Positions 1 through 13,155 of a stretch of 13,155 nucleotides of DNA are shown here, piece after piece; the first letter of the stretch is position 1; every line of letters begins with the position of its first letter. Below the pieces are notes generated by a model. The model was given only the letters and a program-made list of their open reading frames with translations, made no database searches and had not been told where the DNA came from. The DNA is from an uncultured Lachnospiraceae bacterium (lineage in GTDB: Bacteria > Bacillota > Clostridia > Lachnospirales > Lachnospiraceae). The DNA lies in contig CAMWXF010000015.1 in NCBI GenBank assembly GCA_947178115.1, positions 1-13,155 on the forward strand, read 5' to 3'. The position numbers and the translations under genes are program-made.

Positions 1-43
1 TTTCTGCGTGGTTCGTGGGCGTGGGGATGTGTTTAAGATACAG
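1..43 (-). other. Probable Nextera adapter read-through at contig end
   Basis: Read on the minus strand, positions 43 to 10 align without gaps to the Illumina Nextera read-through adapter (transposon mosaic end CTGTCTCTTATACACATCT followed by CCGAGCCCACGAGAC) at 27 of 34 positions. Positions 9-1 would be the start of an index. All seven mismatches read as A or C on the minus strand, a one-sided pattern that fits low-quality base calls better than evolution. The adapter sequence is recalled from established knowledge and the match was counted by eye. If correct, these bases are not genomic and the left edge of the window is an assembly end. Confidence 0.8.
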
Positions 44-216
44 GTTTTATGGCATAGTTCTTTCTCTATTTCATTAGGATAATATCCTTTTTCGGCAAAA
101 GTAGATTTGATATTTCGTGTTTCTACTTTCTTTTTATCTAAATCACAGTACTGTATCCTTTCACCATCAGCAAAATGGCGCAAAATCAATTGTGGCACAT
201 AATGACTATTTACCAT
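44..216 (-). CDS. DUF4238-type protein, N-terminal fragment
   Basis: The gene starts at ATG 216 behind a good ribosome binding site (GGAGG about nine bases upstream). It encodes about 57 genuine residues beginning MVNSHYVPQLILRHFADG. The HYVPQ..LR.F opening, followed by a short strand-rich part (RIQYCDLDKKKVETRNIKSTF) and GYYPNEIEKEL, is characteristic of the DUF4238 family, whose members are usually around 250-350 residues and of unknown function. The frame stays open to base 1, but after ...KELCHK it runs into the adapter-like sequence, and the expected LE-type continuation of the family is lost there. The break is therefore more likely a contig end than a biological truncation. The gene directly follows a decayed pRiA4b-like gene and sits downstream of rlmD on the same strand. 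The family assignment is from motif recognition only. Confidence 0.6.
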
Positions 217-223
217 AACAAAT

Positions 224-357
224 CGCCTCCATCTCAAACATTGTCCTGATAATATACGCTAAACGAGCCATCGCCATCGATACATTAACCGCCGCCACAT
301 TTTAGATTCGTATTCTTTTAATTCCGCACACATTTCATATATTGGTTGTGATGCCAT
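224..357 (-). pseudogene. Frameshifted pRiA4b ORF-3-like gene remnant
   Basis: From ATG 357 the minus strand reads MASQPIYEMCAELKEYESKMWRR, the usual opening of the pRiA4b ORF-3-like family (IY.. .AEL..Y.PK.WRR). It then meets a stop at 259-261. The continuation of the family (N.(S/T)MARLAYI..TMFEMEA) is present in another frame as VNVSMAMARLAYIIRTMFEM, ending near 224. Seen directly: two frames each carry consecutive family-like segments, so a frameshift with loss of a few residues between them is the simplest reading. Everything after MEA (normally SHLF and ~130 more residues) is missing and replaced by the start of the DUF4238-type gene. It begins 21 bases after the rlmD stop. Function of the intact family is unknown; it is common on plasmids and other mobile DNA. 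Confidence 0.6.
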
Positions 358-378
358 CACACATTTCTCCTTACGCTT

Positions 379-1941
379 TTATCCATAAATACACCCACAG
401 TCCGGTATCTCTTCTTCACGATAATATACTGTTTTCTTCACCGTACTCCCTGCATTCCTTACAATACTGCCATCTGTATCTTTTCTCACAAGCTGACATA
501 CACATTCTGTATGCACACTATGCCCAAACTGATCCACAGCCCGCACCCTCTTCAACTCATACCCGCCTTCGCACAGTACTTTCACATCTCTCGCCAACGT
601 AGCCGAGTCACAGCTCACATACACAATCCTCTCCGGTTTCATCGCAAGCATTGTCTCCAGACACTTCTCGTCACATCCCTTACGCGGCGGATCTACCACG
701 ATCACGTCGGGATGCCGCATCTGCTCGTCCGCTAATCCTATTTCCTTGCCGTTTCCCTCTCCCGACACATCATCCGTATTCAATTTCCCCTCATAAAATG
801 CCGGCAGTATTTCTTCCGCCTTTCCAACGAAGAACTGCACGTTACTGATCCCATTATCGCGGGCATTCTCTCCGGCATCCGCAATCGCTTCCGGAACTAC
901 TTCCACGCCGTACACTTGCTTTGCCTTCTTCGCCATAAAGAGGGATATCGTTCCGATTCCGCAGTACAAGTCCCAGACGGTCTCTTTCCCTGTCAATCCG
1001 GCATAGTCCAGTGCGAGAGCATACAATTTTTCTGTCTGCACGGGATTGACCTGATAAAATGACAGCGGAGAAATCGCAAAAGATATTCCGCCCAGAGTAT
1101 CATGAATCCTATCCTGCCCCCAGAGCACTCGAATTTCCTTCCCCATAATTACGTTCGTCTTCTCAGTGTTGACGCTGACAGAGATGCTTGTCATTCTGCC
1201 TTCACCTTCTGAAAATTTAAGCCCTGTCAACCTCTCAACCAGCCTCTCTTCTGCCGGCAGCTTCCTCCCGTTAATCACAATACACACCATGATTTCCCCC
1301 GACTGAAATCCCGTCCGGATCAGCACATGGCGCACCAGCCCGGTGCCCTCTGCCTCACGATACGCGGTTACATGGTTCTCTCGCATATAGTCTAAAACCG
1401 CCTCGAGAATGACCTGATTCTCAGGCGCACCTAGCGCGCAGTCAGTGTTTGCTATAATGTCATGTGTCCTGCCCGCATAGAAACCGGTGACAAGATTACC
1501 GTTCTTATCATATCCTACCGGATACTGCGCTTTGTTGCGGTAGTGCCATGGCTCCTCCATGCCGACGATCGGTTCCGTCACAGCCTCCACCAGCTCCGGC
1601 GCAAATCCGCCGATGCGGATCAGATTTCCCCGTACCTTATCCTGTTTATAGATTAACTGCCTGTCATAGCTCATAGCCTGAATCTGGCAGCCGCCGCACT
1701 GTCTGTGAAATCTGCACTTAGGTTCCACACGAAAAGAAGAAGGCGTTACCACCTTCTCTACTCTCGCATAACCATAATTCTTCTTACATTTGGTGATCCT
1801 CGCCTCCACCACATCACCGATAACCGCATCTTTTACGAAAAGCGTATATCCTTCCGCCTTGCCGATTCCTTCACCGTCATTACCGATATCCTCTATCGTG
1901 ACCGTGACAATATCATTTTTCTGATACTTTCCGTAATCCAT
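379..1941 (-). CDS. rlmD: 23S rRNA (uracil-C5)-methyltransferase, RlmD/RlmCD family
   Basis: The 520-residue protein transfers a methyl group from S-adenosylmethionine to C5 of uracil in 23S rRNA. Firmicute members may modify both U747 and U1939 (RlmCD), so site specificity is not settled by sequence. An N-terminal TRAM domain (about residues 8-66) is followed by the iron-sulfur ligands C76, C82, C85 (CRFHRQCGGCQ) and C168. The SAM-binding motif DLYCGIGT lies at 324-331, DPPRKGC at 417-423, the catalytic cysteine C444 in YVSCDSATLARD, and the general base region FGHSVHTEC at 472-480. Compared with the ~450-residue family norm there is an acidic insertion (about 384-410) and a ~35-residue C-terminal tail ending EIPDCGCIYG. 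The AGAGG ribosome binding site is about ten bases before ATG 1941. It is the last gene of the three-gene operon, 25 bases after yhaM. Confidence 0.93.
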   Translation of the reverse strand: MDYGKYQKNDIVTVTIEDIGNDGEGIGKAEGYTLFVKDAVIGDVVEARITKCKKNYGYARVEKVVTPSSFRVEPKCRFHRQCGGCQIQAMSYDRQLIYKQDKVRGNLIRIGGFAPELVEAVTEPIVGMEEPWHYRNKAQYPVGYDKNGNLVTGFYAGRTHDIIANTDCALGAPENQVILEAVLDYMRENHVTAYREAEGTGLVRHVLIRTGFQSGEIMVCIVINGRKLPAEERLVERLTGLKFSEGEGRMTSISVSVNTEKTNVIMGKEIRVLWGQDRIHDTLGGISFAISPLSFYQVNPVQTEKLYALALDYAGLTGKETVWDLYCGIGTISLFMAKKAKQVYGVEVVPEAIADAGENARDNGISNVQFFVGKAEEILPAFYEGKLNTDDVSGEGNGKEIGLADEQMRHPDVIVVDPPRKGCDEKCLETMLAMKPERIVYVSCDSATLARDVKVLCEGGYELKRVRAVDQFGHSVHTECVCQLVRKDTDGSIVRNAGSTVKKTVYYREEEIPDCGCIYG

Positions 1942-1966
1942 AGGTCGTCATACCTCTTTCGCTATC

Positions 1967-2911
1967 CTACTCTACCTTCGTCCCTCTCACATTAGACTCA
2001 AACAGCCTGTTATACCCAAGCCACCCCGTCTCATTCGTACTTTCCAGAAGTTCCGTGAAGGTCTCCATCTTCGCATCGGTATTGTCCGCAAAGGTCAGCG
2101 CGACCGCCTCCACGATAGCGGGTTTCTTGGGAGACCCGAACTCATACTCCCCGTGATGCGCCAGAATACAATGTTTCAGTTCCCCTGCAAGCAGCGCCGG
2201 GAACCCGTCTATCATCCTGATCTTTTCTCCGATCATCTCACTGCCGATTACAATATGCCCGAGGAACTGTCCGTCGTCCGTATAATCATTCTGCGGGAAA
2301 AGAGATAGCTCTTTCGTCTTGCCGATATCATGACAGATCGCCGCCGTCAGCAGAAGATCTCTGTTCAAAACGGCATATTGACTGCTGAAATAATCACACA
2401 GCCTCGCCACTGCAAGCGTGTGCTGCAACAGACCACCCACAAAACCGTGGTGCACTGTCTTTGCCGCAGAGGATTGTTTGAATACCTTCACAAATGCCTC
2501 GTCTTCCACGAAAAAAGCCTGCAACAATTTCTTCAGATAGGGATTCCCGATGCTGTCGATCAGTGCCAGCAGCTCCTTCATCATATCCTCGATCGGATAT
2601 TTACTTACGGGAAGATAATCCGCGGGATCATATTCACCCTCATTGCACTTGCGGATGCGTTTCACATTAACCTGGTTCGCTCCCTGAAAACTGGTTACAT
2701 CCCCATACACTTCTATGTAATCTAATGTATCGAAATCCTCGATTCCTGCATTATTAGGGTCCCAAATTTTAGCATCCACAGTTCCCGTCTTGTCCTGCAG
2801 GATCACATTATCATATGGCTTACCGTTCTTCGTAACCGCGGACTGTTTATGTTTGCACAGATAGATATCAAATACCCTGTCGCCCTCTTTATAATCCTTA
2901 ATATACTTCAT
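1967..2911 (-). CDS. yhaM: YhaM-family 3'-5' exoribonuclease
   Basis: The protein joins an N-terminal OB-fold nucleic-acid-binding domain (about residues 10-90) to a C-terminal HD metal-dependent hydrolase domain. HD-domain metal ligands are visible as H164 (LLQHTL), H194-D195 (ICHDIGK), H252-H253 (LAHHGEYEFGSPKKP) and D276 (FADNTDAKM). Members degrade RNA, and to some extent DNA, from the 3' end. An in-frame ATG exists at 2932, but the start at 2911 is preferred. It has GAGG five bases upstream, whereas 2932 has no good site. It also gives 314 residues, the length I recall for the Bacillus subtilis protein. It lies between the HtrA-like gene (64 bases upstream) and rlmD (25 bases downstream) on the same strand. 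The operon thus pairs RNA decay with rRNA modification. Confidence 0.9.
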   Translation of the reverse strand: MKYIKDYKEGDRVFDIYLCKHKQSAVTKNGKPYDNVILQDKTGTVDAKIWDPNNAGIEDFDTLDYIEVYGDVTSFQGANQVNVKRIRKCNEGEYDPADYLPVSKYPIEDMMKELLALIDSIGNPYLKKLLQAFFVEDEAFVKVFKQSSAAKTVHHGFVGGLLQHTLAVARLCDYFSSQYAVLNRDLLLTAAICHDIGKTKELSLFPQNDYTDDGQFLGHIVIGSEMIGEKIRMIDGFPALLAGELKHCILAHHGEYEFGSPKKPAIVEAVALTFADNTDAKMETFTELLESTNETGWLGYNRLFESNVRGTKVE

Positions 2912-2975
2912 CCTATCCTCATTTCTGCGCATGATTTCATCTTGATTCTATCGAAGCGCCTCATAATTTTACAGC

Positions 2976-4337
2976 CTATCTCGTTCCTAATGTCACCGTT
3001 GCGTTCATCTCACGTCCCTGCCGCATCAGCATGAAAGTCAGCGTATCCTCCGGATTGGCATTATACAGAACGGTGAGCAGATCGTTATAAGTGTTAATCG
3101 GTGTCTCATTGATCTGCACCACCACGTCACCGCTCTGGATCCCTGCCGCCATTGCAGGAGAATCCATCTCAATCCCTTTAATATACGCGCCCTGCGGGAT
3201 ATTCAGTTCCTCGCTTGCCTCTTTCGGCACATCAGCACCACGGATACCAAGATAAGCTCTTTCCTTATCATTGGACATCTTCTCGATCGTTCTCTTCAAC
3301 TCGGATATTCCGTATGCAGTCAACAGATTTCCCATATCATTGCTGGTATTGACGTTGTCAATAATGCCGATGACCATCCCTTTCAGATTGACAAGCACTC
3401 CCGTCGCATTCCGGCTGGCATATATATCCGTTGTGATCGTCTTATATGCGGAATCGGGTTGGTCCAGCACTGTTCCCACGGAAGTCACTACACCGTAACA
3501 GACCGATCCGCTTGTCCCCATCGGACTGCCCAGCGCCATGACAGGCATACCAAGAAGATTGCTGTTATTGGAGCTGCCCAGATTCGCGATATCTATGACA
3601 TCCATCGTCTCTTCCTCTATGCTCATCAGCGGCACCGATAGGACTGCCAGCCCCGTCGTGACATCTTTCTGTACAAGTTCCGCATTGACTTTCGCCTGAT
3701 CGCAGAATGTCACAATAATACTATCCACGTTATTCAGCGTTCCGCCGCTGACTAAGATCAAAATAGACTTACCGTTATTCGCTACAATAATTCCCGAAGC
3801 AGAAGCCTCGTTTTCATAAATATCATTGAACCAGTCAACGTCCGACACGACCCCGGTTACGGTCACAATGGACCGCCCTGCCGTCTGTGCCAGCTCCGCC
3901 AGCTCCCCGTAAAGCGCCTGATAATCCTCCATTCCAAACTCTACCTGTGACAGCAGTTTTTCGATCTGCTCATCTTCCAGCTCCGCCTGCACGATCTCTA
4001 CCTCAGGCTCTTTCTCTTCCTCCACCAGCATATCCTCAGGCTTCATCTCTTCCATCACGGTCTCTTCCGGAAACTGCACTTCCTCTGCTTCCTCTTCCGG
4101 GTACAAACGATTGCTGATAACAGGCTCAAGTACCAGGAATGTCACACATGCCACCAGACCGAAAACAACTGCCATCACTACCGTGATCACGGTTCTTCTG
4201 ATCAGCTTTTTCTTATTGACAGGCTTCTGTTTTATCGTTTCACGCAAAAAATCCGGCTGTACAGGCGGCGTATATTCTGCCTGTTCCTTGGCCGTGCCCT
4301 GCTCTATGCCGCTTTGTTCTTTATCCTGCTCTCCCAT
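2976..4337 (-). CDS. Membrane-anchored HtrA-like PDZ pseudoprotease
   Basis: The 453 residues have the layout of a DegP/HtrA (S1C) protein: a lysine/arginine-rich cytoplasmic N-terminus (1-48), one membrane segment (about 49-70), a very acidic linker (80-126), a trypsin-like fold (about 155-345) and a PDZ domain (about 352-453, YLGIRG...PQGAYIKGIEMDSPA..AGIQSGDVVVQIN). The fold is clear from ASGIIV, TTGLAVLSVP, LGSPMGTSGSV..GVVTSVG and GVLVNLKGMVIGI. All three triad residues appear lost. The N.HV histidine motif is replaced by LVSGGT (195-200), the D..TDLAVL aspartate by G229, and GNSGGPL by RNATGVL (309-315, A311 at the serine position). It is probably a non-proteolytic scaffold or peptide-binding protein outside the membrane. 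It is the first gene of the operon, start ATG 4337 with AGAGGA upstream. Confidence 0.85.
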   Translation of the reverse strand: MGEQDKEQSGIEQGTAKEQAEYTPPVQPDFLRETIKQKPVNKKKLIRRTVITVVMAVVFGLVACVTFLVLEPVISNRLYPEEEAEEVQFPEETVMEEMKPEDMLVEEEKEPEVEIVQAELEDEQIEKLLSQVEFGMEDYQALYGELAELAQTAGRSIVTVTGVVSDVDWFNDIYENEASASGIIVANNGKSILILVSGGTLNNVDSIIVTFCDQAKVNAELVQKDVTTGLAVLSVPLMSIEEETMDVIDIANLGSSNNSNLLGMPVMALGSPMGTSGSVCYGVVTSVGTVLDQPDSAYKTITTDIYASRNATGVLVNLKGMVIGIIDNVNTSNDMGNLLTAYGISELKRTIEKMSNDKERAYLGIRGADVPKEASEELNIPQGAYIKGIEMDSPAMAAGIQSGDVVVQINETPINTYNDLLTVLYNANPEDTLTFMLMRQGREMNATVTLGTR

Positions 4338-4389
4338 AAACCTGATTCCTCTTATTCATGAACAGTAGTAACTTTTGCACTGCTCTTTC

Positions 4390-4418
4390 AGTATAGCTTT
4401 TTTCCTCCCCCTTGTAAA
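4390..4418 (-). promoter_or_regulatory. Sigma-A promoter of the htrA-like/yhaM/rlmD operon
   Basis: On the minus strand TTTACA (4418-4413) and TATACT (4395-4390) are separated by exactly 17 bases. Transcription would start near 4383, about 45 bases before the HtrA-like start codon. No terminator or second strong promoter is seen between the three genes. Confidence 0.75.
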
Positions 4419-4420
4419 GA

Positions 4421-4444
4421 AGCCTTAAGCGCGAAAGCGCGGCT
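4421..4444 (+). other. GNRA-loop hairpin in divergent intergenic region
   Basis: GCGC-GAAA-GCGC (4429-4440) forms a short stem closed by a GAAA tetraloop. It is flanked by AGCC (4421-4424) and GGCT (4441-4444), which can pair outside a TTAA bulge. There is no following T-run, so it does not look like a terminator. It sits just upstream of the operon promoter and upstream of mutS2. Its role is unknown. Confidence 0.35.
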
Positions 4445-4580
4445 CCGTAGATACGAACTTCTATATGTGCAGACGATTCAGATACCCTGCTAACTGTAAC
4501 AACTCATAGTAATTCCGCCCACTTTATGATAGAATAATACCTAACACAATTATAAACATCATAAAGGAAATTATATAACT

Positions 4581-6956
4581 ATGAACAACAAAGTACTGCA
4601 TGTTTTAGAATACAATAAAATCATCGACCAATTAACGGACAAAGCCACCTCGGAGCAGGGCAAAAAGCTGACCCGCGCGCTTGTTCCCATGACGGATCAG
4701 GCAAAAATCGCCGCAGCACAGACGGAGACTGCAGATGCGCTGGGGCGTCTGTTTCGTAAAGGCTCAACCTCTTTTGGCGGTAACAAGGACTTAGGCATGT
4801 GCATCAAATCTCTGGAGATCGGCAGTGTCCTCTCCATTACAGAACTTCTGCGCATAGCGTCCTTTCTGGAAAATGTGAACCGCATCAAGACTTACGGCCG
4901 GAAGGATCGGGAAGATACACCCGCCGACTCGCTGGATGAATATTTCGACATACTGGAACCGCTCACACCGCTGGTAAATGAAATCCGCAGGTGTATCCTG
5001 TCGGAAGAAGAGATCGCAGACGATGCCAGCCCGACATTAAAACACATCCGGCGCAGCATGTCTATCACCAATGACCGGATTCACTCCCAGCTCAGCTCCA
5101 TGATCAACGGTTCCTGCCGCACCTATCTGCAGGATGCCGTCGTGACTATGCGTAATAACCGTTACTGCATTCCGGTGAAATCCGAATACAAAGGACAGGT
5201 GCCTGGCATGGTACACGACCAGTCTTCCACCGGTTCCACCTTTTTCATAGAACCGGCGGCCGTTGTCAGTCTGAACAACGAACTGCGGGAACTGGAAATC
5301 AAGGAACAGGAAGAGATCGCAGTCATTCTTGCGGACTTAAGCGCACAGACGGGTACACATACAGATACACTGGCAGGTAACCAGAGAGCCATGACCGCTC
5401 TCGACTTTATCTTTGCCAAAGCCTCTCTCGCCATGGAGCAGAATGCCACCATGCCGATTTTTAACACAGAACATCGGATACGCATCCGCCAAGGACGCCA
5501 TCCGCTTCTGGATAAAAAGAAAGTTGTGCCCATCGACATTTCGCTGGGTACGGACTTTGACCTTCTGGTCATTACGGGACCCAATACCGGCGGTAAGACC
5601 GTTTCCTTAAAAACTGTGGGACTGCTCACCTTAATGGGACAGGCGGGACTGCACATTCCGGCATTAGACCGCTCTGAGCTGTCCGTTTTTGAAGAGGTCT
5701 ACGCTGACATCGGAGACGAGCAGAGCATTGAACAGAGTCTCAGCACCTTTTCTTCCCATATGACAAATATCGTGTCCATTCTGCAGACGGCGGATGTCGA
5801 TTCGCTTTGTCTGTTTGACGAACTGGGTGCCGGAACCGATCCTACGGAAGGCGCCGCTCTTGCTATCGCGGTGCTTGACTATCTGCACAACCGCGGAATA
5901 CGGACAATGGCCACAACACATTACAGTGAATTGAAGGTCTATGCGCTGTCTACGAGTTTCGTGGAAAATGCAAGCTGCGAATTCAGTGTGGAGACGCTGC
6001 GGCCCACCTACCGTCTGTTGATCGGTATTCCCGGTAAGAGTAATGCATTCGCCATCTCATCCAAGCTGGGACTTCCAGATCGCATCATCGAAGAAGCCAA
6101 GCGGCATATCACGGAGGATAAGGAAAGTTTCGAAGATCTTCTGGCAGACCTGGAGAACAGCAGACTGACCATTGAAAAAGAACGGGCGGAAGTAGCGTCC
6201 TACAAGGAAGAGGTTCAGACATTAAAGAAACAGTTGGAAGCCAAACAGGAGAAAATCGATCAGGCGAAAGCACGTATTCTGCGCGAGGCAAATGAGGAAG
6301 CTCGTGAGATCCTGCAAAACGCCAAGGAGCTCGCCGACGAGACGATCCGCACTTTTCAGAAGGCAGGCGCCGGGTCTTCCATCAAAGAGTTGGAGAAATC
6401 CCGCCAGAAGGTGCGGGACAAGATTTCCGAGAAAAATGATAAACTGTCACTGAAAAATGACAAACTTACCCACAAGCTCCTAAAACCGAGCCAGATTAAA
6501 CTTGGGGAAAGTGTGAAGATCATTTCCATGGGATTAAAGGGTACCGTCAGCTCCCTTCCGGACAAGAACGGCAAACTCTTTGTTCAGTGCGGCATTATCC
6601 GCTCGCAGGTATCCTTAGACGATCTTGTTCTCGCGGAAGAGGAAACGATCAACACTGGCCGGATGCAGCGCGGCTCCTCCGGCAAGCTTAAGATGTCCAA
6701 GTCCTACTCCGTTTCCACCGAAATCAATCTGCTGGGCAAAACGGTAGACGAAGCTTTATCGGAGCTGGACAAATATTTAGATGATGCCTATCTGGCACAT
6801 CTGCCCAGCGTCCGCATCGTCCACGGCAAAGGCACCGGAGCGCTGCGAAATGCGGTACACAATTATCTGCGCAAAAATAAGGTAGTAAAAAGTTACCGGC
6901 TGGGAGAGTTCGGCGAAGGTGACGCAGGTGTCACAATTGCTGAGTTTAAGGATTGA
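4581..6956 (+). CDS. mutS2: Endonuclease MutS2
   Basis: The 791-residue protein has the full MutS2 architecture without the mismatch-recognition domain of MutS1: an N-terminal core (1-300), an ABC-type ATPase with Walker A TGPNTGGKT (332-340) and Walker B LFDELGAGTDP (411-421), a long charged coiled coil (about 510-640), and a C-terminal Smr nuclease domain (about 714-791) with VHGKGTGALR near 747. The family binds branched DNA to limit recombination; in Bacillus it also acts on collided ribosomes. One oddity is that the usual LDLRG motif at the start of the Smr domain reads INLLG (715-719). The start at 4581 has AAGGA twelve bases upstream, slightly far. It is divergent from the HtrA-like operon. 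The upstream region has only a weak -10-like TATGAT (4525-4530). Its 3' end overlaps the padR reading frame on the other strand. Confidence 0.96.
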   Translation: MNNKVLHVLEYNKIIDQLTDKATSEQGKKLTRALVPMTDQAKIAAAQTETADALGRLFRKGSTSFGGNKDLGMCIKSLEIGSVLSITELLRIASFLENVNRIKTYGRKDREDTPADSLDEYFDILEPLTPLVNEIRRCILSEEEIADDASPTLKHIRRSMSITNDRIHSQLSSMINGSCRTYLQDAVVTMRNNRYCIPVKSEYKGQVPGMVHDQSSTGSTFFIEPAAVVSLNNELRELEIKEQEEIAVILADLSAQTGTHTDTLAGNQRAMTALDFIFAKASLAMEQNATMPIFNTEHRIRIRQGRHPLLDKKKVVPIDISLGTDFDLLVITGPNTGGKTVSLKTVGLLTLMGQAGLHIPALDRSELSVFEEVYADIGDEQSIEQSLSTFSSHMTNIVSILQTADVDSLCLFDELGAGTDPTEGAALAIAVLDYLHNRGIRTMATTHYSELKVYALSTSFVENASCEFSVETLRPTYRLLIGIPGKSNAFAISSKLGLPDRIIEEAKRHITEDKESFEDLLADLENSRLTIEKERAEVASYKEEVQTLKKQLEAKQEKIDQAKARILREANEEAREILQNAKELADETIRTFQKAGAGSSIKELEKSRQKVRDKISEKNDKLSLKNDKLTHKLLKPSQIKLGESVKIISMGLKGTVSSLPDKNGKLFVQCGIIRSQVSLDDLVLAEEETINTGRMQRGSSGKLKMSKSYSVSTEINLLGKTVDEALSELDKYLDDAYLAHLPSVRIVHGKGTGALRNAVHNYLRKNKVVKSYRLGEFGEGDAGVTIAEFKD

Positions 6957-7459
6957 TGAATCCAGTTTTCGATTGCCTGCGTGAGAAGATACTGCTGCTG
7001 TAAAACCGCCTTACCTGTTTCGGGAATATCGGGGCGGTTTTCTTTTGCGTGGAGATTTTCTTCTTGATATGCCTTTAATTGTTTTACATTGTTTTCAATT
7101 TCTGTCAGGCATATTTGCTGTTTTTCTGGCGGAAGACTGTCCAGATTCACGATGACAGCATTAAAATCCAGATATATGTTGACAGATTTTGCGGCAATTT
7201 CAAACATTAACTTTTCAAATTCTTTTTCACCTTCATCAGTCAAAGAGTATACTGCTTTTTCCGGCATTTTCCCCTCTTTTTCCATATGGCTGCTGATTAG
7301 TCCCTTTTCTTCTAACTGAATGACCTTTTTATAGATAGAAGGAGTACTGATTTTGACCCACTTTGATATATTGCGGTATTCGACCAGCTTCTGAATATCA
7401 TAAGCGCTTAATGATTCTTTCTTCAACATTCCTAATACGATCAAGTCTATAGTAGCCAT
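6893..7459 (-). CDS. PadR-family transcriptional regulator
   Basis: The 188 residues carry the PadR winged-helix domain (about 1-85: IDLIVLGMLKKESLSAYDI, then KVSTPSIYKKV-type recognition region reading ISTPSIYKKVIQLEEKGLI and a wing ending VYSLTDEG). A C-terminal helical dimerisation region follows, ending around YLLTQAIENWIHQS (~residue 170). PadR proteins repress by binding palindromes and release DNA when they bind ligand. The ATG at 7459 has TAGGAG six bases upstream. It is divergent from the MATE gene, with shared operators, so repression of itself and the transporter is the obvious inference. The last ~18 codons are antisense to the end of mutS2 and do not look like a PadR tail, suggesting the original stop was lost. 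The gene looks more AT-rich than mutS2. Confidence 0.88.
   Translation of the reverse strand: MATIDLIVLGMLKKESLSAYDIQKLVEYRNISKWVKISTPSIYKKVIQLEEKGLISSHMEKEGKMPEKAVYSLTDEGEKEFEKLMFEIAAKSVNIYLDFNAVIVNLDSLPPEKQQICLTEIENNVKQLKAYQEENLHAKENRPDIPETGKAVLQQQYLLTQAIENWIHQSLNSAIVTPASPSPNSPSR
7002..7041 (+). terminator. Candidate mutS2 terminator inside padR coding strand
   Basis: AAAACCGCC (7002-7010) and GGCGGTTTT (7033-7041) form a 9-bp perfect stem around a 22-base loop. In the plus direction this is followed by CTTTTG, giving a U-rich 3' side. It lies 46 bases after the mutS2 stop. The same bases encode part of PadR on the minus strand (GAENRP...GKAV region), so chance pairing cannot be excluded, and the loop is long. 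Confidence 0.4.
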
Positions 7460-7481
7460 AAAAATCTCCTAATATTCGTTA

Positions 7482-7510
7482 TTGACAGATACTATAAATT
7501 ATAGTACTAT
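7482..7510 (+). promoter_or_regulatory. MATE promoter
   Basis: A consensus TTGACA (7482-7487) is spaced 17 bases from TACTAT (7505-7510). Transcription would start near 7517, leaving a ~69-base leader before the MATE start. The spacer and -10 element lie inside operator repeat 1, so a bound repressor would occlude RNA polymerase. The second repeat lies just downstream of the start site. Confidence 0.8.
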
Positions 7511-7511
7511 A
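7491..7511 (+). promoter_or_regulatory. PadR operator-like repeat 1
   Basis: The first copy of a 21-base repeat, ACTATAA-A-TTATAGT followed by ACTATA. The first 15 bases are a perfect palindrome around a central A, and the last 12 (TATAGTACTATA) are a second overlapping perfect palindrome. It sits in the spacer and -10 region of the MATE promoter and covers the padR -10. That PadR is the binder is inferred from position. Confidence 0.7.
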
Positions 7512-7526
7512 CTTTTTGCGTCGCAA
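7498..7526 (-). promoter_or_regulatory. padR promoter
   Basis: On the minus strand TTGCGA (7526-7521) and a perfect TATAAT (7503-7498) are separated by 17 bases. The -10 element is the centre of operator repeat 1, and the promoter overlaps the oppositely oriented MATE promoter. Simultaneous firing of both is therefore sterically unlikely. Confidence 0.7.
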
Positions 7527-7528
7527 CT

Positions 7529-7549
7529 AGTATAAATTATAGTACTATA
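7529..7549 (+). promoter_or_regulatory. PadR operator-like repeat 2
   Basis: The second copy of the 21-base repeat, matching copy 1 at 20 of 21 positions (AG instead of AC at the start). The copies start 38 bases apart. This one is downstream of the predicted MATE start site and just upstream of the padR -35. It could block transcription elongation or allow repressors on both sites to interact. Confidence 0.68.
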
Positions 7550-7585
7550 AAAAATAGCTTTTTAGTTGAAAGGAGCACATATAAC

Positions 7586-8956
7586 ATGAATGAACAAAAT
7601 AGAAAAATGGAGTTACTTGGAAGTGCGCCAATGCCCAAGGCACTTTTGGCATTGGGACTTCCGACCATGGTCGGGATGCTGATTAACGCGCTGTATAATC
7701 TGGTGGATACATACTTTGTAGGCGGACTGGGAACGGATCAAATGGGTGCGATCACAGTAGCTTATCCTCTTGGTCAGGTTGTCGTGGGATTGGGACTTTT
7801 GTTCGGAAACGGTGCGGCGGCGTATCTTTCAAGGCTTCTGGGAAGGGGAGACAGAGAAACCGCCGACAGGGTAGCAAGTACTGCCCTGTACAGCAGTGTT
7901 TTCAGCGGAGTAATCGTAATACTTTGCTCCGTTATTTTCCTGAAACCGATTTTAAAACAGTTAGGGGCAATCGACAGTGTGATGCCATATGCTCTGACTT
8001 ATACGAGCATCTATATCACATTTTCCATATTTAATGTGTTCAATGTCACCATGAACAATATTGTATCCAGTGAAGGAGCCGCGAAAACAGCCATGTGTGC
8101 GCTAATGGCGGGTGCGGTATTGAATGTCGTATTAGATCCGGTCTGTATCTACGGACTTGATCTTGGCGTTGCCGGAGCGGCAATTGCTACAGCGGTTTCA
8201 CAGATTGCTTCAACATTGGTCTATGTTTGCTATATTTTTAGCAAAAAGAGTATGTTTCATTTTCATATAAAAGGCTGCTGTCTTACAAAAGAGATCATGT
8301 CCGAAATTTTAAAGATTGGGATTCCGACACTGATATTTCAGCTTTTGACAAGCCTTTCCGTGGCGATGATCAATGGTGTGGCAACAGAATACGGCGGATC
8401 AGCTCTTGCCGCGATGGGACCGGTCACGAAAATTATGTCCATGGGAAGTCTGGTCGTGTTTGGATTCTTAAAAGGATTTCAGCCGATTGCCGGATTCAGT
8501 TATGGATCAAAAAAATATGATCGTCTGCACGAAGCAATCAGAATATCTATTATCTGGTCAACGATATTTTGTGTGGTTTTTGGTTTGGCAGTCGCCGTAT
8601 TCTCTACGGGGATTATGTCTCGGTTTACCAGAAATGATACGGAAATGATCCGCATTGGTCAGACGACACTTAGGGCGAATGGGATTTCTTTTATGTTGTT
8701 CGGATTCCATACCGTGTATTCCTTTCTTTTTCTTGTAATGGGAAAAGCAAAAGAGGGGTGCCTTCTTGGCGGCTGCCGACAGGGGATATGTTTTGTGCCT
8801 GTCATTTTGATTCTTCCGAGAATATTGGGATTGAATGGGGTTCTTTATGCTCAGCCGATTGCGGATGTGCTGGCGGCGATGGTTACTGTGTTTATGGCGC
8901 GGAGGCTCTCCATGGAATTAAAGACTGAGAAAGAGGAGGTCATTCACTTCAGGTAG
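7586..8956 (+). CDS. MATE family multidrug efflux transporter
   Basis: The 456-residue integral membrane protein has the repeated pattern of about twelve hydrophobic segments typical of MATE carriers. The N-terminal signature is PMPKALLALGLPTMVGMLINALYNLVDTYFVGGLG, then the GPVTKIMSMGSLVVFGFLKGFQPIAGFSYGSKKYDR region that opens the second six-helix half. Such proteins expel cationic drugs or metabolites in exchange for Na+ or H+ across the cytoplasmic membrane. The closest recognised subgroup is MepA/NorM-like; the substrate is not predictable. The start has GAAAGGAG ten bases upstream. It is transcribed from a consensus promoter overlapped by PadR-type operators, and an AraC/GyrI-like regulator gene follows after ~185 bases. 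The sequence ends with a short charged cytoplasmic tail. Confidence 0.93.
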   Translation: MNEQNRKMELLGSAPMPKALLALGLPTMVGMLINALYNLVDTYFVGGLGTDQMGAITVAYPLGQVVVGLGLLFGNGAAAYLSRLLGRGDRETADRVASTALYSSVFSGVIVILCSVIFLKPILKQLGAIDSVMPYALTYTSIYITFSIFNVFNVTMNNIVSSEGAAKTAMCALMAGAVLNVVLDPVCIYGLDLGVAGAAIATAVSQIASTLVYVCYIFSKKSMFHFHIKGCCLTKEIMSEILKIGIPTLIFQLLTSLSVAMINGVATEYGGSALAAMGPVTKIMSMGSLVVFGFLKGFQPIAGFSYGSKKYDRLHEAIRISIIWSTIFCVVFGLAVAVFSTGIMSRFTRNDTEMIRIGQTTLRANGISFMLFGFHTVYSFLFLVMGKAKEGCLLGGCRQGICFVPVILILPRILGLNGVLYAQPIADVLAAMVTVFMARRLSMELKTEKEEVIHFR

Positions 8957-9100
8957 CCGTAGAAAAACACATTGAATCATTCTCTCTGGAGAAAGATGAT
9001 GTATAGAGAAATTTGGAGAGTCTTATGCTAATATATAAAAAAGGTCAGACGGGATTTGACTTTCCGCAACTAAAATCAAGCAGATTTATTTTCAACTCCG

Positions 9101-9106
9101 TATAAT
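9101..9106 (+). promoter_or_regulatory. Possible -10 element for the AraC-type gene
   Basis: A perfect TATAAT lies 35 bases upstream of the preferred AraC start at 9142, but the position 17 bases upstream shows no recognisable -35. If used, transcription would begin around 9113, downstream of the alternative ATG at 9109, and exclude that start. Such a promoter might need an activator. The rest of 8957-9100 shows no clear terminator or gene. Confidence 0.35.
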
Positions 9107-9141
9107 AAATGCAGGATGGTCGAGACGAGGTTAAATATCAG

Positions 9142-10110
9142 ATGTACGAATGGCAAAAACAGATACAGATTATGATCGAAGAGATAGACATATGTATTAG
9201 AAGGAACGATGATGAAGCATTGTCACTAAGCTGTCTTTCTGATAAATTAGGATATTCCGAATGTCATATCTCAAGAAAATTCAGGGAAATCTCGGGCATG
9301 CAGTTTAGAGATTATCTGCGGTATCGAAGATTAGCTTTTGCGCTGAAAGAACTCAGAGATACTGACAATTCGATATTAGATATTGCTTTGAAGTATGGGT
9401 TTTCTTCACATGAAGCTTTTACACGCGCATTTAAGGAAGCCTATAGCATTACCCCAAGTGAATATCGTCATAGTCCAAGACCTGTCGCACTTCGTACGAT
9501 CATAAAACCTTTCGACTGTTACTTATTAAGCATTGGAGGATGTGGTATGGAGAAATCTGCAAAGGATGTAAAAACTTATTTTGTGACGATTCCGGCACAC
9601 AAATTTTTACACATTAAAAATTATGAGAGCATTGGATACTGGGACTTTTGGCAGAAACAGAGTCTTATTCCGGGGCAGGATTGTGAAACGATCTGTGGTT
9701 TACTTGACAGTATCAAGGGCAAATTGGACGATATGGGAGACAGTGAAGCGAATAGCGGAAGCGGCCAGATTATGGCATATATAAATGAACCGACCGGCAG
9801 AATCTGCAGCTGGGGGATTCCTCTCGCAGAATGCTACGGTGTACGCCTTCCGATTGACTATAGCGGCGATGTACCTGAGCAAATGCTTATGGCCGATATT
9901 CCTGAAGCTGAATATATCGTTTTCGAGCACGGCCCCTTTGACTTAGAGAAGGAGAACAACAGTGTGGAAGAAAAGATCGAAGCGGCCATGAAAACATTTG
10001 ATTATGCCGCCGCCGGTTACTGTCTTGATACCACTCCGGGCAGAGTGTTTTACTTTTATCATGATCCGAAACGGTTTTGGAAATATGTCAGACCGGTGCG
10101 GAAGATATAG
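9142..10110 (+). CDS. AraC-type regulator with GyrI-like ligand-binding domain
   Basis: The protein has an N-terminal AraC/XylS DNA-binding domain with two helix-turn-helix units (about residues 20-100; LSCLSDKLGYSECHISRKF and SILDIALKYGFSSHEAFTRAF, closing with YSITPSEYR). A C-terminal GyrI-like small-molecule-binding domain follows (about 143-320, ending RVFYFYHDPKRFWKYVRPVRKI). This is the Rob-like order, typical of activators that sense drugs. An in-frame ATG exists at 9109 (333 residues), but 9142 (322 residues) is preferred. It begins MYEWQKQIQ as relatives do, has GAGG 11 bases upstream, and 9109 lies against a TATAAT. It lies downstream of the MATE gene on the same strand, so it may control or respond to substrates of that transporter; the spacing of ~185 bases allows separate transcription. 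Confidence 0.9.
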   Translation: MYEWQKQIQIMIEEIDICIRRNDDEALSLSCLSDKLGYSECHISRKFREISGMQFRDYLRYRRLAFALKELRDTDNSILDIALKYGFSSHEAFTRAFKEAYSITPSEYRHSPRPVALRTIIKPFDCYLLSIGGCGMEKSAKDVKTYFVTIPAHKFLHIKNYESIGYWDFWQKQSLIPGQDCETICGLLDSIKGKLDDMGDSEANSGSGQIMAYINEPTGRICSWGIPLAECYGVRLPIDYSGDVPEQMLMADIPEAEYIVFEHGPFDLEKENNSVEEKIEAAMKTFDYAAAGYCLDTTPGRVFYFYHDPKRFWKYVRPVRKI

Positions 10111-10187
10111 CACTGACAATCTCATGATACTATAGGGCTCAATTTTATAAATGCATTATGAAAGCAAAACGATCTGCGTTTCAGCTC

Positions 10188-10216
10188 TTGAAAAAAGCAA
10201 CTGTATGCTATATTAT
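10188..10216 (+). promoter_or_regulatory. Promoter of the small RNA
   Basis: TTGAAA (10188-10193) is followed after 17 bases by TATTAT (10211-10216). Transcription would start near 10223, directly before AAAGGAACAACC. There is no coding gene between it and the strong hairpin 50 bases later, which points to a non-coding transcript. Confidence 0.65.
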
Positions 10217-10222
10217 ACCCAT

Positions 10223-10313
10223 AAAAGGAACAACCGCCCACAAGGTGGGTTGACCTAATGTATAGAGTAGAAAAACCACCCCGCTACCGGTCAAAGTTTT
10301 GGGGTGGTTTTTC
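10223..10313 (+). ncRNA. Small RNA, type I antitoxin-like
   Basis: A complete compact unit is visible: promoter upstream, a first hairpin at 10231-10252 (CAACC and CAC pairing with GTG and GGTTG around AAG, or alternatively CCCAC/GTGGG), a ~17-base linker and a strong terminator hairpin. The predicted transcript is about 90 nt. The arrangement, with the motif GGAACAACCGCCC at the 5' end and a CCACCCC/GGGGTGG terminator, resembles from memory the antisense RNA of holin-like toxin (type I toxin-antitoxin) loci in Firmicutes. In those loci the toxin mRNA comes from the opposite strand and ends in the same hairpin. No hydrophobic toxin with a start and ribosome binding site is recognisable on the minus strand here, so it may be an orphan or an independent regulator. 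Confidence 0.55.
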
Positions 10314-10315
10314 TA
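10268..10315 (+). terminator. Bidirectional intrinsic terminator
   Basis: A 15-bp perfect inverted repeat (TAGAAAAACCACCCC and its complement, 10268-10282 and 10301-10315) flanks an 18-base loop. GC-rich pairs sit at the loop end and A/T pairs at the base, giving a U-tract in both directions. It would end the small RNA on the plus strand and any transcript coming from the right on the minus strand. Confidence 0.8.
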
Positions 10316-10364
10316 TGTATGGCTACTTACAAGCAGTAAAAATATAGCGATGGAACTGTTGGAG

Positions 10365-10394
10365 TTGACGTTTGGACATCCCAGCGCATATAAT
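10365..10394 (+). promoter_or_regulatory. Promoter of the two-component operon
   Basis: TTGACG (10365-10370) and a perfect TATAAT (10389-10394) are separated by 18 bases. Transcription would start near 10401, giving a leader of about 145 bases before the response regulator. The leader carries two hairpins and a short ORF. Confidence 0.72.
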
Positions 10395-10424
10395 TTTATA
10401 TATACCGCAGAATTTCCTATACAA

Positions 10425-10466
10425 AATCGAGCTACGCTCGATTGCGAGATTTGCTTCGCAAACTCG
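10425..10466 (+). repeat. Two tandem hairpins in the regulator leader
   Basis: Hairpin 1 is an 8-bp perfect stem, AATCGAGC / GCTCGATT, with a TAC loop (10425-10443). Hairpin 2 pairs CGAG and TTTGC with GCAAA and CTCG around a TTC loop, with one bulged A (10445-10466). They are one base apart and neither has a T-run, so they are not simple terminators. They may stabilise the mRNA or act in regulation of the response regulator. Confidence 0.6.
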
Positions 10467-10508
10467 TGCAAGAATAAGCAATGTCTCATAAAAATAAAGA
10501 AAGGGAAC

Positions 10509-10544
10509 ATGATGTTTTGCTTCTGCAAGTATCATACAGGGTAA
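10509..10544 (+). CDS. Possible 11-codon leader peptide
   Basis: A short ORF, MMFCFCKYHTG, is preceded by GAAAGGGAAC, a better ribosome binding site than the one in front of the response regulator. Its TAA (10542-10544) ends two bases before the regulator ATG at 10547. The regulator's only site (CAGGG) lies inside the leader codons. Translational coupling is a reasonable inference; whether the peptide itself matters (it has two cysteines and aromatic residues) is unknown. It may be chance. Confidence 0.35.
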   Translation: MMFCFCKYHTG

Positions 10545-10546
10545 AT

Positions 10547-11245
10547 ATGGTAAACAAACAGAAAATTTTAATTGTAGACGACGACAACAATATCGCAGAG
10601 TTAATCTCTCTCTATCTGACGAAGGAATGTTTCGAGACGATGATTGTCAACGACGGAGAATCGGCACTCACCGCAGTGGACAGCTTCGAGCCGAATCTGA
10701 TGCTTCTCGACTTGATGCTTCCCGGCATCGACGGTTATCAGGTCTGCCGTGAGATTCGTTCCAAATCCACGCTGCCCATCATTATGCTGTCCGCCAAAGG
10801 CGAAGTCTTTGATAAAGTGCTCGGTCTGGAGCTGGGCGCGGACGATTACATGGAGAAGCCTTTTGACTCCAAGGAGCTGGTTGCCAGAGTCAAAGCCGTT
10901 CTGCGCCGGTACAAGCCTGCCGCTGCGGAACCGAAAGCTTCCGACATAAAGAGCGTGGAATATCCTGATCTTGTCATTAACCAGACAAACTATTCCGTTG
11001 TCTATATGGGTAAAACAATCGAGATGCCGCCCAAAGAACTGGAGCTGTTATATTTTCTGGCTTCCTCGCCGAATCATGTATTTACGAGAGAGCAGCTTCT
11101 GGATCAGATCTGGGGTTATGAGTATATCGGCGACACGCGTACTGTAGACGTACATATTAAGCGTCTCCGCGAGAAGATCAATGACCATGAAAGGTGGCGT
11201 ATCGCCACAATCTGGGGTATTGGCTACAAATTTGAATCCAGATAG
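10547..11245 (+). CDS. OmpR/PhoB-family response regulator
   Basis: The 232-residue protein has a receiver domain (about 5-118) with the acidic pocket D11-D13 (VDDD), phospho-acceptor D55 (LMLLDLMLPG), S82 and K104 (MEKPF). A C-terminal winged-helix DNA-binding domain follows (about 135-230; PPKELELLYFLASSPNHVFTREQLL, VDVHIKRLREKI, IWGIGYKF). A longer frame opens at ATG 10481, but its first 22 residues have no match to the family and no ribosome binding site. The start at 10547 (MVNKQKILIVDDD) gives the standard domain. It is phosphorylated by the histidine kinase encoded 11 bases downstream and then activates or represses target promoters. The target process cannot be told from sequence; PhoP/VanR/ResD-type regulators are all similar. 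Confidence 0.93.
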   Translation: MVNKQKILIVDDDNNIAELISLYLTKECFETMIVNDGESALTAVDSFEPNLMLLDLMLPGIDGYQVCREIRSKSTLPIIMLSAKGEVFDKVLGLELGADDYMEKPFDSKELVARVKAVLRRYKPAAAEPKASDIKSVEYPDLVINQTNYSVVYMGKTIEMPPKELELLYFLASSPNHVFTREQLLDQIWGYEYIGDTRTVDVHIKRLREKINDHERWRIATIWGIGYKFESR

Positions 11246-11256
11246 GAAAATATTAT

Positions 11257-12681
11257 ATGAGGAAAACGTTATATCTCAAATTTATACTTGCCTACATCAT
11301 TTTTGGTTGGTTTGGTTTCGTAGTTGTGGCAACCTTTGTTTCCAATATGACTATGGATCATCTGAAAAAACAGCAGGCAGACTCTCTCTACCGAGAGGCA
11401 ACACTGATCGCCAACACCTATGCAAGCGGACTGTACAATAATGAAGTATCTCTTGAAGTTGTCAAATCACAGTTGGACGCCTTGGATACCTACCTAAGCG
11501 CTACGCTGTGGATCATCAATCCATCCGGTCGTCTGATCTTAGACTCCTCCGCTCCTCTGGATGTGGAAAATGAGATCATGATCGAAAACTTTGATCCCAC
11601 CGTCACGGCAGGTTCCTACTATACAATCGGCAACTTTTTTAATACCTTCGACGAAGATATGCTGAGTGTGTTCGCGCCCATCACCTCCGACTATAAAGTC
11701 AAGGGATATGTGGTGATTCACAGCTCCATATCAGGTATTCTTAAGGAGACTGATAACCTCCTTACGATCTCCTATATCATGCTGGTCATTTTGTTTCTGT
11801 TATCACTCATTATCCTAATCTTCTTCACGGAGATCGTCTACATTCCGCTTCGTAAGATCACGGAAGCAACGGAGCAATATGCCAGCGGCAATATGCATTA
11901 TGAATTCAGTGTAGAAAGCGAAGATGAGATGGGTTATCTGGCAGCAACGCTGTCCTATATGGCCAGTGAAATCGCCCGCTCCGAGGACGACCAAAAAAAG
12001 TTCGTTGCCAATGTTTCCCACGACTTCCGTTCCCCGCTGACTTCCATCAAGGGATATCTGGAAGCGATGATAGACGGCACAATTCCACCGGAAATGCACG
12101 AGAGATATCTTACGATCCTTTTAAACGAAACAGAACGTCTGCGGAAACTGACCAACAGCCTCCTGACACTTAATAATCTGAATACAAAAGGGATCATGCT
12201 GAATAAGGTTGATTTCGATATAAACAGGACAATCCGCAACGTAGCGGCTTCTTTCGAAGGCACATGCCGCGCCAAGACAATCGCCATCGAACTGGTACTG
12301 ACAGGCGACGAGATGTATGTGGTGGCCGATATGGATAAGATTCAGCAGGTGCTCTACAATCTGTTGGATAACGCCATCAAGTTCAGCCATCACGATTCCG
12401 TAATCAAGATAGAAACGACAGAGAAGCACAACAAGGTATTCGTCAGCGTCAAAGATTCCGGCATCGGTATTCCGAAGGACGATCTGAAGCTGATCTGGGA
12501 CAGATTCTATAAATCCGATCTCTCCCGCGGTAAAGATAAAAAGGGCACCGGTCTGGGATTGTCCATCACGAAAGAGATCATCCGCTCCCACGAAGAAAAT
12601 ATCAACGTAATCAGCACCGAGGGCGTAGGAACAGAATTTATTTTCTCCTTGTCAAAATCAGACATGGAGGACGATGACTGA
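11257..12681 (+). CDS. HAMP-domain sensor histidine kinase
   Basis: The 474-residue membrane sensor has a first membrane segment at about 9-28 and a ~140-residue extracellular sensor region containing a PAS/Cache-like stretch (LSATLWIINPSGRLILDSS). A second membrane segment lies at about 169-193, a HAMP linker at about 194-246, then a HisKA domain with phospho-acceptor H255 (NVSHDFRSPLTSIKGYLEAM). The HATPase_c domain has an N-box with N372 (LLDNAIKFS), DSGIGIP near 400 and GTGLGLS near 430. It autophosphorylates on H255 and passes phosphate to D55 of the regulator encoded just upstream. The gene begins 11 bases after that gene's stop, behind AGGAAAA. The stimulus is unknown. It ends 3 bases from the converging trmL, with no room for a conventional terminator between. 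Confidence 0.94.
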   Translation: MRKTLYLKFILAYIIFGWFGFVVVATFVSNMTMDHLKKQQADSLYREATLIANTYASGLYNNEVSLEVVKSQLDALDTYLSATLWIINPSGRLILDSSAPLDVENEIMIENFDPTVTAGSYYTIGNFFNTFDEDMLSVFAPITSDYKVKGYVVIHSSISGILKETDNLLTISYIMLVILFLLSLIILIFFTEIVYIPLRKITEATEQYASGNMHYEFSVESEDEMGYLAATLSYMASEIARSEDDQKKFVANVSHDFRSPLTSIKGYLEAMIDGTIPPEMHERYLTILLNETERLRKLTNSLLTLNNLNTKGIMLNKVDFDINRTIRNVAASFEGTCRAKTIAIELVLTGDEMYVVADMDKIQQVLYNLLDNAIKFSHHDSVIKIETTEKHNKVFVSVKDSGIGIPKDDLKLIWDRFYKSDLSRGKDKKGTGLGLSITKEIIRSHEENINVISTEGVGTEFIFSLSKSDMEDDD

Positions 12682-12684
12682 TCG

Positions 12685-13155
12685 CTAGTTTTTCCAGTGC
12701 AGGCGATGCAACTCTCCTGCCTTTAGCATACCGTCAAACTGATTCTGGCGAAGCGCTTCATACAGCACGATCGCCACAGAATTAGACAAGTTTAGAGACC
12801 TGATCTGCTCCAACATAGGAATGCGGATACAGGTTTCTTCATTTTCTACCAGAATTTCCTCCGGAATGCCGCCACTCTCCTTACCGAACATAATATAGTC
12901 ATCCGGGGCAAATGCGACATCTGTATAAACGCGCTTCGCTTTCGTGGTAGCCATCCAGATCTTGGCAGCAGGATGCTTCTCCCGAAACTCCTGATAATTC
13001 ATGTATCTGGTAACATCCAAATGCTCCCAATAATCCATACCGGACCGTTTGATCGATTTCTCATCCAAGCGGAAACCCAGCGGCTCGATCAAGTGAAGGC
13101 TCGTACCTGTGGCAACACAGGTACGGCCGATATTGCCGGTATTAGCCGGGATTTC
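12685..13155 (-). CDS. trmL: tRNA (cytidine/uridine-34 2'-O)-methyltransferase TrmL, 5' end cut
   Basis: The visible 156 residues are a SPOUT-class (SpoU/TrmH-like) methyltransferase that 2'-O-methylates the wobble base of certain tRNAs, such as leucine tRNAs, using S-adenosylmethionine. The trefoil-knot motifs are clear: EIPANTGNIGRTCVATG at the N-terminus, IMFGKESGGIPEEIL in the middle, and IRIPMLEQIRSLNLSNSVAIVLYEALR at the C-terminus. The window's right edge removes only about eight residues (normally M-I-V-L-x-x-P type). The frame is continuous to base 13155, so the ATG near 13092 is an internal methionine-like position within IEPLGF and not the start. The predicted full length of ~164 is normal. 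It converges on the histidine kinase gene. Confidence 0.95.
   Translation of the reverse strand, partial: EIPANTGNIGRTCVATGTSLHLIEPLGFRLDEKSIKRSGMDYWEHLDVTRYMNYQEFREKHPAAKIWMATTKAKRVYTDVAFAPDDYIMFGKESGGIPEEILVENEETCIRIPMLEQIRSLNLSNSVAIVLYEALRQNQFDGMLKAGELHRLHWKN

Follow-up and report, generated by a model that had tools for sequence, protein, structure and literature searches.

A predicted HtrA pseudoprotease encoded beside yhaM across the Lachnospiraceae

Results and discussion

The 13,155-nucleotide stretch of DNA analysed here (the window) comes from an uncultured Lachnospiraceae bacterium (GCA_947178115.1, contig CAMWXF010000015.1, positions 1 to 13,155) and carries on its minus strand, at 2976..4337 with the stop codon included, a gene whose 453-residue product has the domain order of HtrA and none of its three catalytic residues. 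HtrA is a textbook quality-control protease, and the Lachnospiraceae are a large group of gut commensals. What appears to be new here is an HtrA pseudoprotease that is family-wide, forms a single clade, has lost the whole triad, and combines a fixed gene order with a conserved motif predicted to lie on the cytosolic side of the membrane. HtrA pseudoproteases as such are already known, namely MamO and the inactive plant Degs (PMC3473262), and among the papers listed by searches of the open-access literature, with subscription papers mostly outside it, there was none on one from the Lachnospiraceae. We propose, with belief and doubt evenly balanced, that the protein is a non-cleaving, membrane-anchored pseudoprotease whose PDZ domain binds exported polypeptides outside the cell and whose juxtamembrane motif docks a cytosolic partner.

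An HtrA architecture without catalytic residues

The gene was delineated from its open reading frame (ORF), translation and Pfam matches. Its product follows the HtrA plan, a trypsin-like domain and then a PDZ domain, according to Pfam, an AlphaFold2 model computed as a monomer and the structural matches of that model, the DegS structures 3gdv and 6ew9 being among the top ones. Against TIGR02037, which represents Do-family endopeptidases, the protein scores 127.8 bits and hence falls under the curated cut-off of 416.2. Read from the N-terminus, residues 28-48 (4194..4256, minus strand, as are all segments of this gene) hold the juxtamembrane motif F30-x-x-E33-x-I35-K36-x-x-P39 followed by a run of lysines and arginines; model confidence is low up to residue 36. 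Residues 49-75 (4113..4193) form the single predicted transmembrane segment, as judged from conservation and from a modelled helix spanning residues 42-78, and residues 76-136 (3930..4112) form a poorly conserved acidic linker that is predicted to lie outside the membrane. The N-terminus, and with it the motif, would face the cytosol, because positive charges precede the helix and an acidic stretch comes after it. The trypsin-like domain covers residues 137-350 (3288..3929; Pfam, alignment, model and structural matches), and the PDZ domain, which retains Y-L-G-I at 362-365, covers residues 358-453 (2979..3266; Pfam, conservation and model).

In the alignment the catalytic His column is occupied by G199 (3741..3743), the Asp column by G229 (3651..3653) and the Ser column by A311 (3405..3407), with RNATG in place of GNSGG. 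A preliminary description of this DNA had seen an HtrA-like protein with its frame intact and its triad missing, and the columns and domain matches bear this out. The HtrA fold and the single membrane helix are predictions of the model. Loss of catalysis is near certain, and we infer that the protein does not cleave.

Triad loss across the family

With P0001 as query we searched 61 genomes and, separately, 299 family genomes from 298 genera. An orthologue 65-100% identical occurs in 34 of the 37 genomes of the genus; none was found in G008, G019 and G020 (67, 84 and 97% complete). For the family, the best 150 matches were listed, down to about 170 bits, and 88 of the 149 non-window rows (L053-L140) were read, a choice by score that favours close relatives; together with the genus members they give 127 distinct aligned sequences. 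The triad-less form, whose conservation the preliminary description had left to an alignment of homologues, is the rule there: none of the 127 orthologues has an intact triad, none keeps the His, and none keeps any two of the three residues. Gly fills the Asp column in 99 rows and Asp in five; in the Ser column, Ala (75 rows) prevails over Gly (27) and Ser (15). Two protein searches, with 3185 and 511 matches, listed 240 relatives, and not one of those 240 has the His. Five divergent members reached only through the slot upstream of yhaM (L188, L195, L198, L206 and L211) are not intact either, with Asp kept in three.

Could the protein still be an enzyme with a different set of catalytic residues? 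Ser393 is present in 125 of the 127 sequences and Asp295 and Asp404 in all of them, and three rows (L073, L118 and L122) have S-G-G where the catalytic Ser once stood. Yet Ser393 is located in the PDZ domain, the best His column reaches 44/127, Cys columns outside the membrane segment reach at most 51/127, exact GNSGG occurs in no row, and the three S-G-G rows have neither His nor Asp. A survey of the aligned columns thus found no replacement catalytic residues, and we hold this explanation to be very improbable. The triad-less proteins P0021, P0097, P0098, P0136, P0138 and P0228 are named 'S1C family serine protease' in their source records. The label is misleading, as no member of the group that was read is expected to cleave, and protease counts in the Lachnospiraceae are likely inflated by it.

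Purifying selection on the pseudoprotease

Within the genus the pseudoprotease is under strong purifying selection. The median NG86 ratio of nonsynonymous to synonymous substitution rates (dN/dS) is 0.090 for the whole protein (34 pairs); by segment it is 0.043 for residues 25-48, 0.044 for the transmembrane segment, 0.091 for the linker, 0.084 for the protease-like domain and 0.17 for the PDZ domain. Pairs with dS outside 0.1-2 were excluded, which left 24 to 53 of 91 pairs per segment, and the values are rough because dS is high. For the active HtrA paralogues of the genus the value is 0.085 when only the last 330 residues are compared and 0.164 at full length. Over 66 pairs of 12 genomes, mean identity across the protease-like and PDZ domains is 0.73 for the pseudoprotease and 0.79 for the active HtrA. 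The preliminary description had proposed that a non-catalytic role is under selection, and the value of about 0.08 in the protease-like domain and a family that is triad-less throughout the sample support this. A decaying gene retained by chance would fit the fact that the gene is not seen in its slot in several lineages; this idea is already contradicted by the genus dN/dS of about 0.09, by matches listed without internal stops and by the single clade spanning the family, and we consider it barely credible.

Descent from HtrA and the active paralogues

Both trees nest the triad-less proteins among HtrA rows and thereby place their descent within HtrA. They form one clade with support of 100 in a quick tree (62 rows) and 100/100 in a careful tree (49 rows). 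The sister clade consists of the same family's active HtrA paralogues (89 in the quick tree; 91/93, not starred, in the careful one), and the next branch, the yhaM-slot HtrA L164, is not firm (88 and 86/76). A single triad-less clade that is sister to the active paralogues makes it likely that the active and inactive pair arose once by duplication. A single duplication in the family ancestor and a single early loss of catalysis would have left a dead copy beside yhaM and an active copy elsewhere.

A query with the active paralogue gives a strong match in 66 of 67 family genomes: 51 of the 52 that carry the pseudoprotease, the exception being G207 (93% complete), which gave only its pseudoprotease, and 15 of the 15 without it in the yhaM slot. 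The triad is intact in every one of the 39 active copies that were read in 38 family genomes; 18 come from the genus (three from genomes without the pseudoprotease) and 21 from 20 other family genomes. In the genus, a long second HtrA match is present in 31 of the 34 carriers, with a fragment in G007 and none in G035 or the window's assembly. The separate, true HtrA envisaged by the preliminary description is therefore the norm among carriers in the genus and the family; in the window's own assembly a search with P0001 found none, which means little because that assembly is 64% complete. The same assembly encodes a 273-residue Trypsin_2 protein without a PDZ match (L022:1402-2220, minus; G000:C41). 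Its aligned columns retain all three catalytic residues, His (S[H]VLEYW), Asp (F[D]IGF) and Ser (M[S]GGG), and it is possibly an active non-HtrA serine protease of this genome.

The existence of both copies bears on the main rival explanation, in which the pseudoprotease, itself non-catalytic, would act as a partner that switches the active HtrA paralogue on or holds it in check, compare MamO and MamE. The sister relationship of the two clades (91/93, not starred) and their co-occurrence in 51 of 52 genomes, with the active copies read all intact, speak for such a partnership. MamO activates MamE without catalysis, a triad-losing duplication occurred three times in that family (PMC4794232), and plant Deg7 uses its inactive domain for trimerisation (PMC3473262). 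However, all 15 genomes in which the yhaM slot lacks the gene also give a strong active-HtrA match, so the active HtrA can do without the pseudoprotease. The two copies also lie more than 240 kb apart in the five assemblies that have both on one contig (G145, G198, G245, G331 and G356), and those Gram-positive HtrAs that have so far been tested are monomeric in solution (PMC12745498). A partner role would also leave the high conservation of the cytosolic motif unexplained. We judge it possible but rather unlikely.

Gene neighbourhood

In the window the pseudoprotease gene is followed, 43 bases downstream, by a yhaM-like 3'-5' exoribonuclease gene with an HD domain (1967..2932, minus; Pfam HD, NF010007) and, 25 bases after that, by an rlmD-like 23S rRNA methyltransferase gene (379..1941, minus; TIGR00479 436 bits, cut-off 184); the divergently transcribed neighbour, assigned from Pfam MutS_V and Smr and from context, is mutS2 (4581..6956, plus). 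The YhaM-like protein, with its HD-domain match, scores 202 bits against NCBIfam NF010007, under the curated cut-off of 460, and is therefore a divergent YhaM relative. The RlmD-like protein aligns to TIGR00479 in two stretches and may therefore contain an insert beyond about residue 390. A promoter-like site, TTTACA-17-TATACT (10/12), lies at 4390..4418 on the minus strand; the promoter scan found nine such sites in the region against 7.9 in shuffles, no excess, and the terminator scan found four terminators against 2.8. Farther along, at 10481-12681 on the plus strand, the genes look like a tandem of response regulator and histidine kinase, with a presumed MATE-like transporter and AraC-like regulator upstream of this pair.

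The arrangement recurs across the family. In 84 of the 88 family loci a yhaM gene is found on the same strand no more than 1 kb downstream, with median gaps between stop-to-stop ORFs of 0 and 22 bases in two locus sets; none was seen at L071, L079 and L111, and at L123 it is 1.4 kb off. Because flanks are short, the counts for rlmD on the same strand (at least 72/88) and for divergent mutS2 (at least 66/88) are lower bounds. YhaM matches were obtained in 20 of 24 genomes drawn from the order's other families, and 19 of these matches are strong. An HtrA gene lies directly upstream of yhaM in four of the 19 (L164, L168, L180 and L181); in a fifth (L167/L231) a single ORF separates the two genes, and all five of these HtrAs have an intact triad; in the remaining 14 no HtrA was found within 1.5 kb upstream. 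At the sister-family locus L163 (G039), an M23 peptidase and a bactofilin gene stand upstream of yhaM. The preliminary description had left the gene's place in an operon with an exoribonuclease and an rRNA methyltransferase unexplained. The gene does head a yhaM-rlmD run, but its position is not an isolated puzzle, given yhaM downstream in 84/88 loci and an active HtrA at, or one gene from, the slot in 5/19 other families of the order.

In 30 high-completeness family genomes without a strong pseudoprotease match, a search for YhaM gave 28 strong matches, and five of these loci hold a divergent pseudoprotease in the slot. A Pfam scan of 20 ORFs upstream of yhaM at 19 loci pointed to no constant replacement gene. 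Fourteen have a match (one only below the cut-off) and six have none, and the functions are varied, among them histidine kinases, transport proteins, polyphosphate kinase, M23 peptidase and bactofilin.

In Listeria, S. aureus and B. subtilis the gene prsA, which encodes an exported foldase, adjoins yhaM or lies close to it (PMC3921577), so an exported folding factor at this place is not unique to the Lachnospiraceae. This is a hint, and nothing beyond that, that envelope protein folding and the yhaM locus may be loosely connected. It would also suit a membrane-tethered holdase, in which the protease fold would serve as a chaperone protecting unfolded proteins after their export. The fold and PDZ domain are predicted to be intact, and most of the S234A ectodomain of pneumococcal HtrA assembles into hexamers (PMC12745498). 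Such a holdase leaves the conserved cytosolic motif unexplained, and we think it improbable.

The juxtamembrane motif and the proposed function

Over the 88 family members, mean pairwise identity is 0.40 for residues 28-48, a stretch on which the preliminary description was silent and the highest of six segments, against 0.37 for the transmembrane segment and 0.35 for both the PDZ and the protease-like domain. Position 33 is Glu in 87 of the 88. The pattern [FYW]xx[EQ]x[IVLM][KRV] is matched by 108 of 132 triad-less sequences and is absent, in the stretch searched, from the 18 genus and 21 other family active paralogues. When a 59-residue query was searched against 13 genomes for the motif in other membrane proteins, strong matches were only to the pseudoprotease (next E 0.007).

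The fold, the anchor and the cytosolic tail appear to be needed, and cleavage is not; a sensor or adaptor is therefore favoured. The preliminary description had suggested, as examples of a possible role, a membrane-tethered peptide sensor or a regulator of a true HtrA. In the mechanism we propose, the PDZ domain would bind exported polypeptides outside the cell, and the binding state would be passed across the membrane, through the juxtamembrane motif, to a cytosolic partner. More tentatively, the duplicated HtrA may have become a one-pass receptor in which the dead protease domain and the PDZ domain sense exported misfolded proteins outside and the motif triggers a response inside; the Lachnospiraceae as a whole would then possess a sensor of cell-envelope stress that acts through binding and not through proteolysis.

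Several observations weigh against this proposal. The lead of the motif in identity over the folded domains (0.40 vs 0.35) is modest, and 24 of the 132 triad-less sequences miss the pattern, 18 by one position and two by two (L120 and L206), the remaining four being over-long or cut ORFs as read (L006, L133, L188 and L211). The pattern also occurs in six of 28 active HtrAs read from other families of the order (L141/L164, L161, L168/L234, L221, L222 and L226), so its presence does not depend on loss of catalysis; the motif is older than that loss and was kept by the pseudoprotease and not by the active paralogues read. The PDZ domain has the highest dN/dS, which fits variable ligands but equally fits weaker constraint. 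No pseudoprotease was seen upstream of yhaM in 23 of the 28 loci described above, mutS2 being visible beside yhaM in 15, and on a quick YhaM tree (112 labelled rows) presence and absence shift nine times by parsimony, three of them forced by starred branches; YhaM therefore does not need the pseudoprotease. Finally, YhaM, the obvious candidate, gives no support as the cytosolic partner: in 89 sequences with the gene and 23 without it, no column combines conservation of >=90% in the former with <=60% in the latter.

If the signalling reading is true, this protein is an example of how a protease becomes a receptor, one that can be compared directly with its active relatives in the corresponding slot of sister families.

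Comparison with known systems

The stress sensor DegS has a single membrane anchor, one protease-type domain and one PDZ domain, and the pseudoprotease shares these two domains and a predicted single transmembrane anchor. DegS acts by cleavage, whereas the pseudoprotease is missing the DegS-type catalytic residues and has a conserved juxtamembrane motif. MamO of magnetotactic bacteria is likewise an HtrA relative without catalysis beside an active relative; according to PMC4794232, however, MamO retains His and Asp and has Thr at the place of Ser, whereas the window protein lacks all three. The same paper reports that MamO binds metal through two surface His residues and carries a TauE-like transporter domain. 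The pseudoprotease has no widely conserved His, a MamO-type surface site having been sought and not found among the 127 orthologues (best column 44/127), and it has no such Pfam match and ends at its PDZ domain. The inactive plant Degs and the degenerate Deg7 domain, with mutated or incomplete triads, resemble the pseudoprotease but are eukaryotic (PMC3473262). The yhaM-slot HtrAs of other families (L164, L168, L180, L181 and L231) share its slot and domain order, with one ORF intervening before yhaM in L167/L231, and L164 and L168 carry a Y-x-x-E/Q-x-I-K motif resembling its own; unlike the pseudoprotease, all five keep His-Asp-Ser intact.
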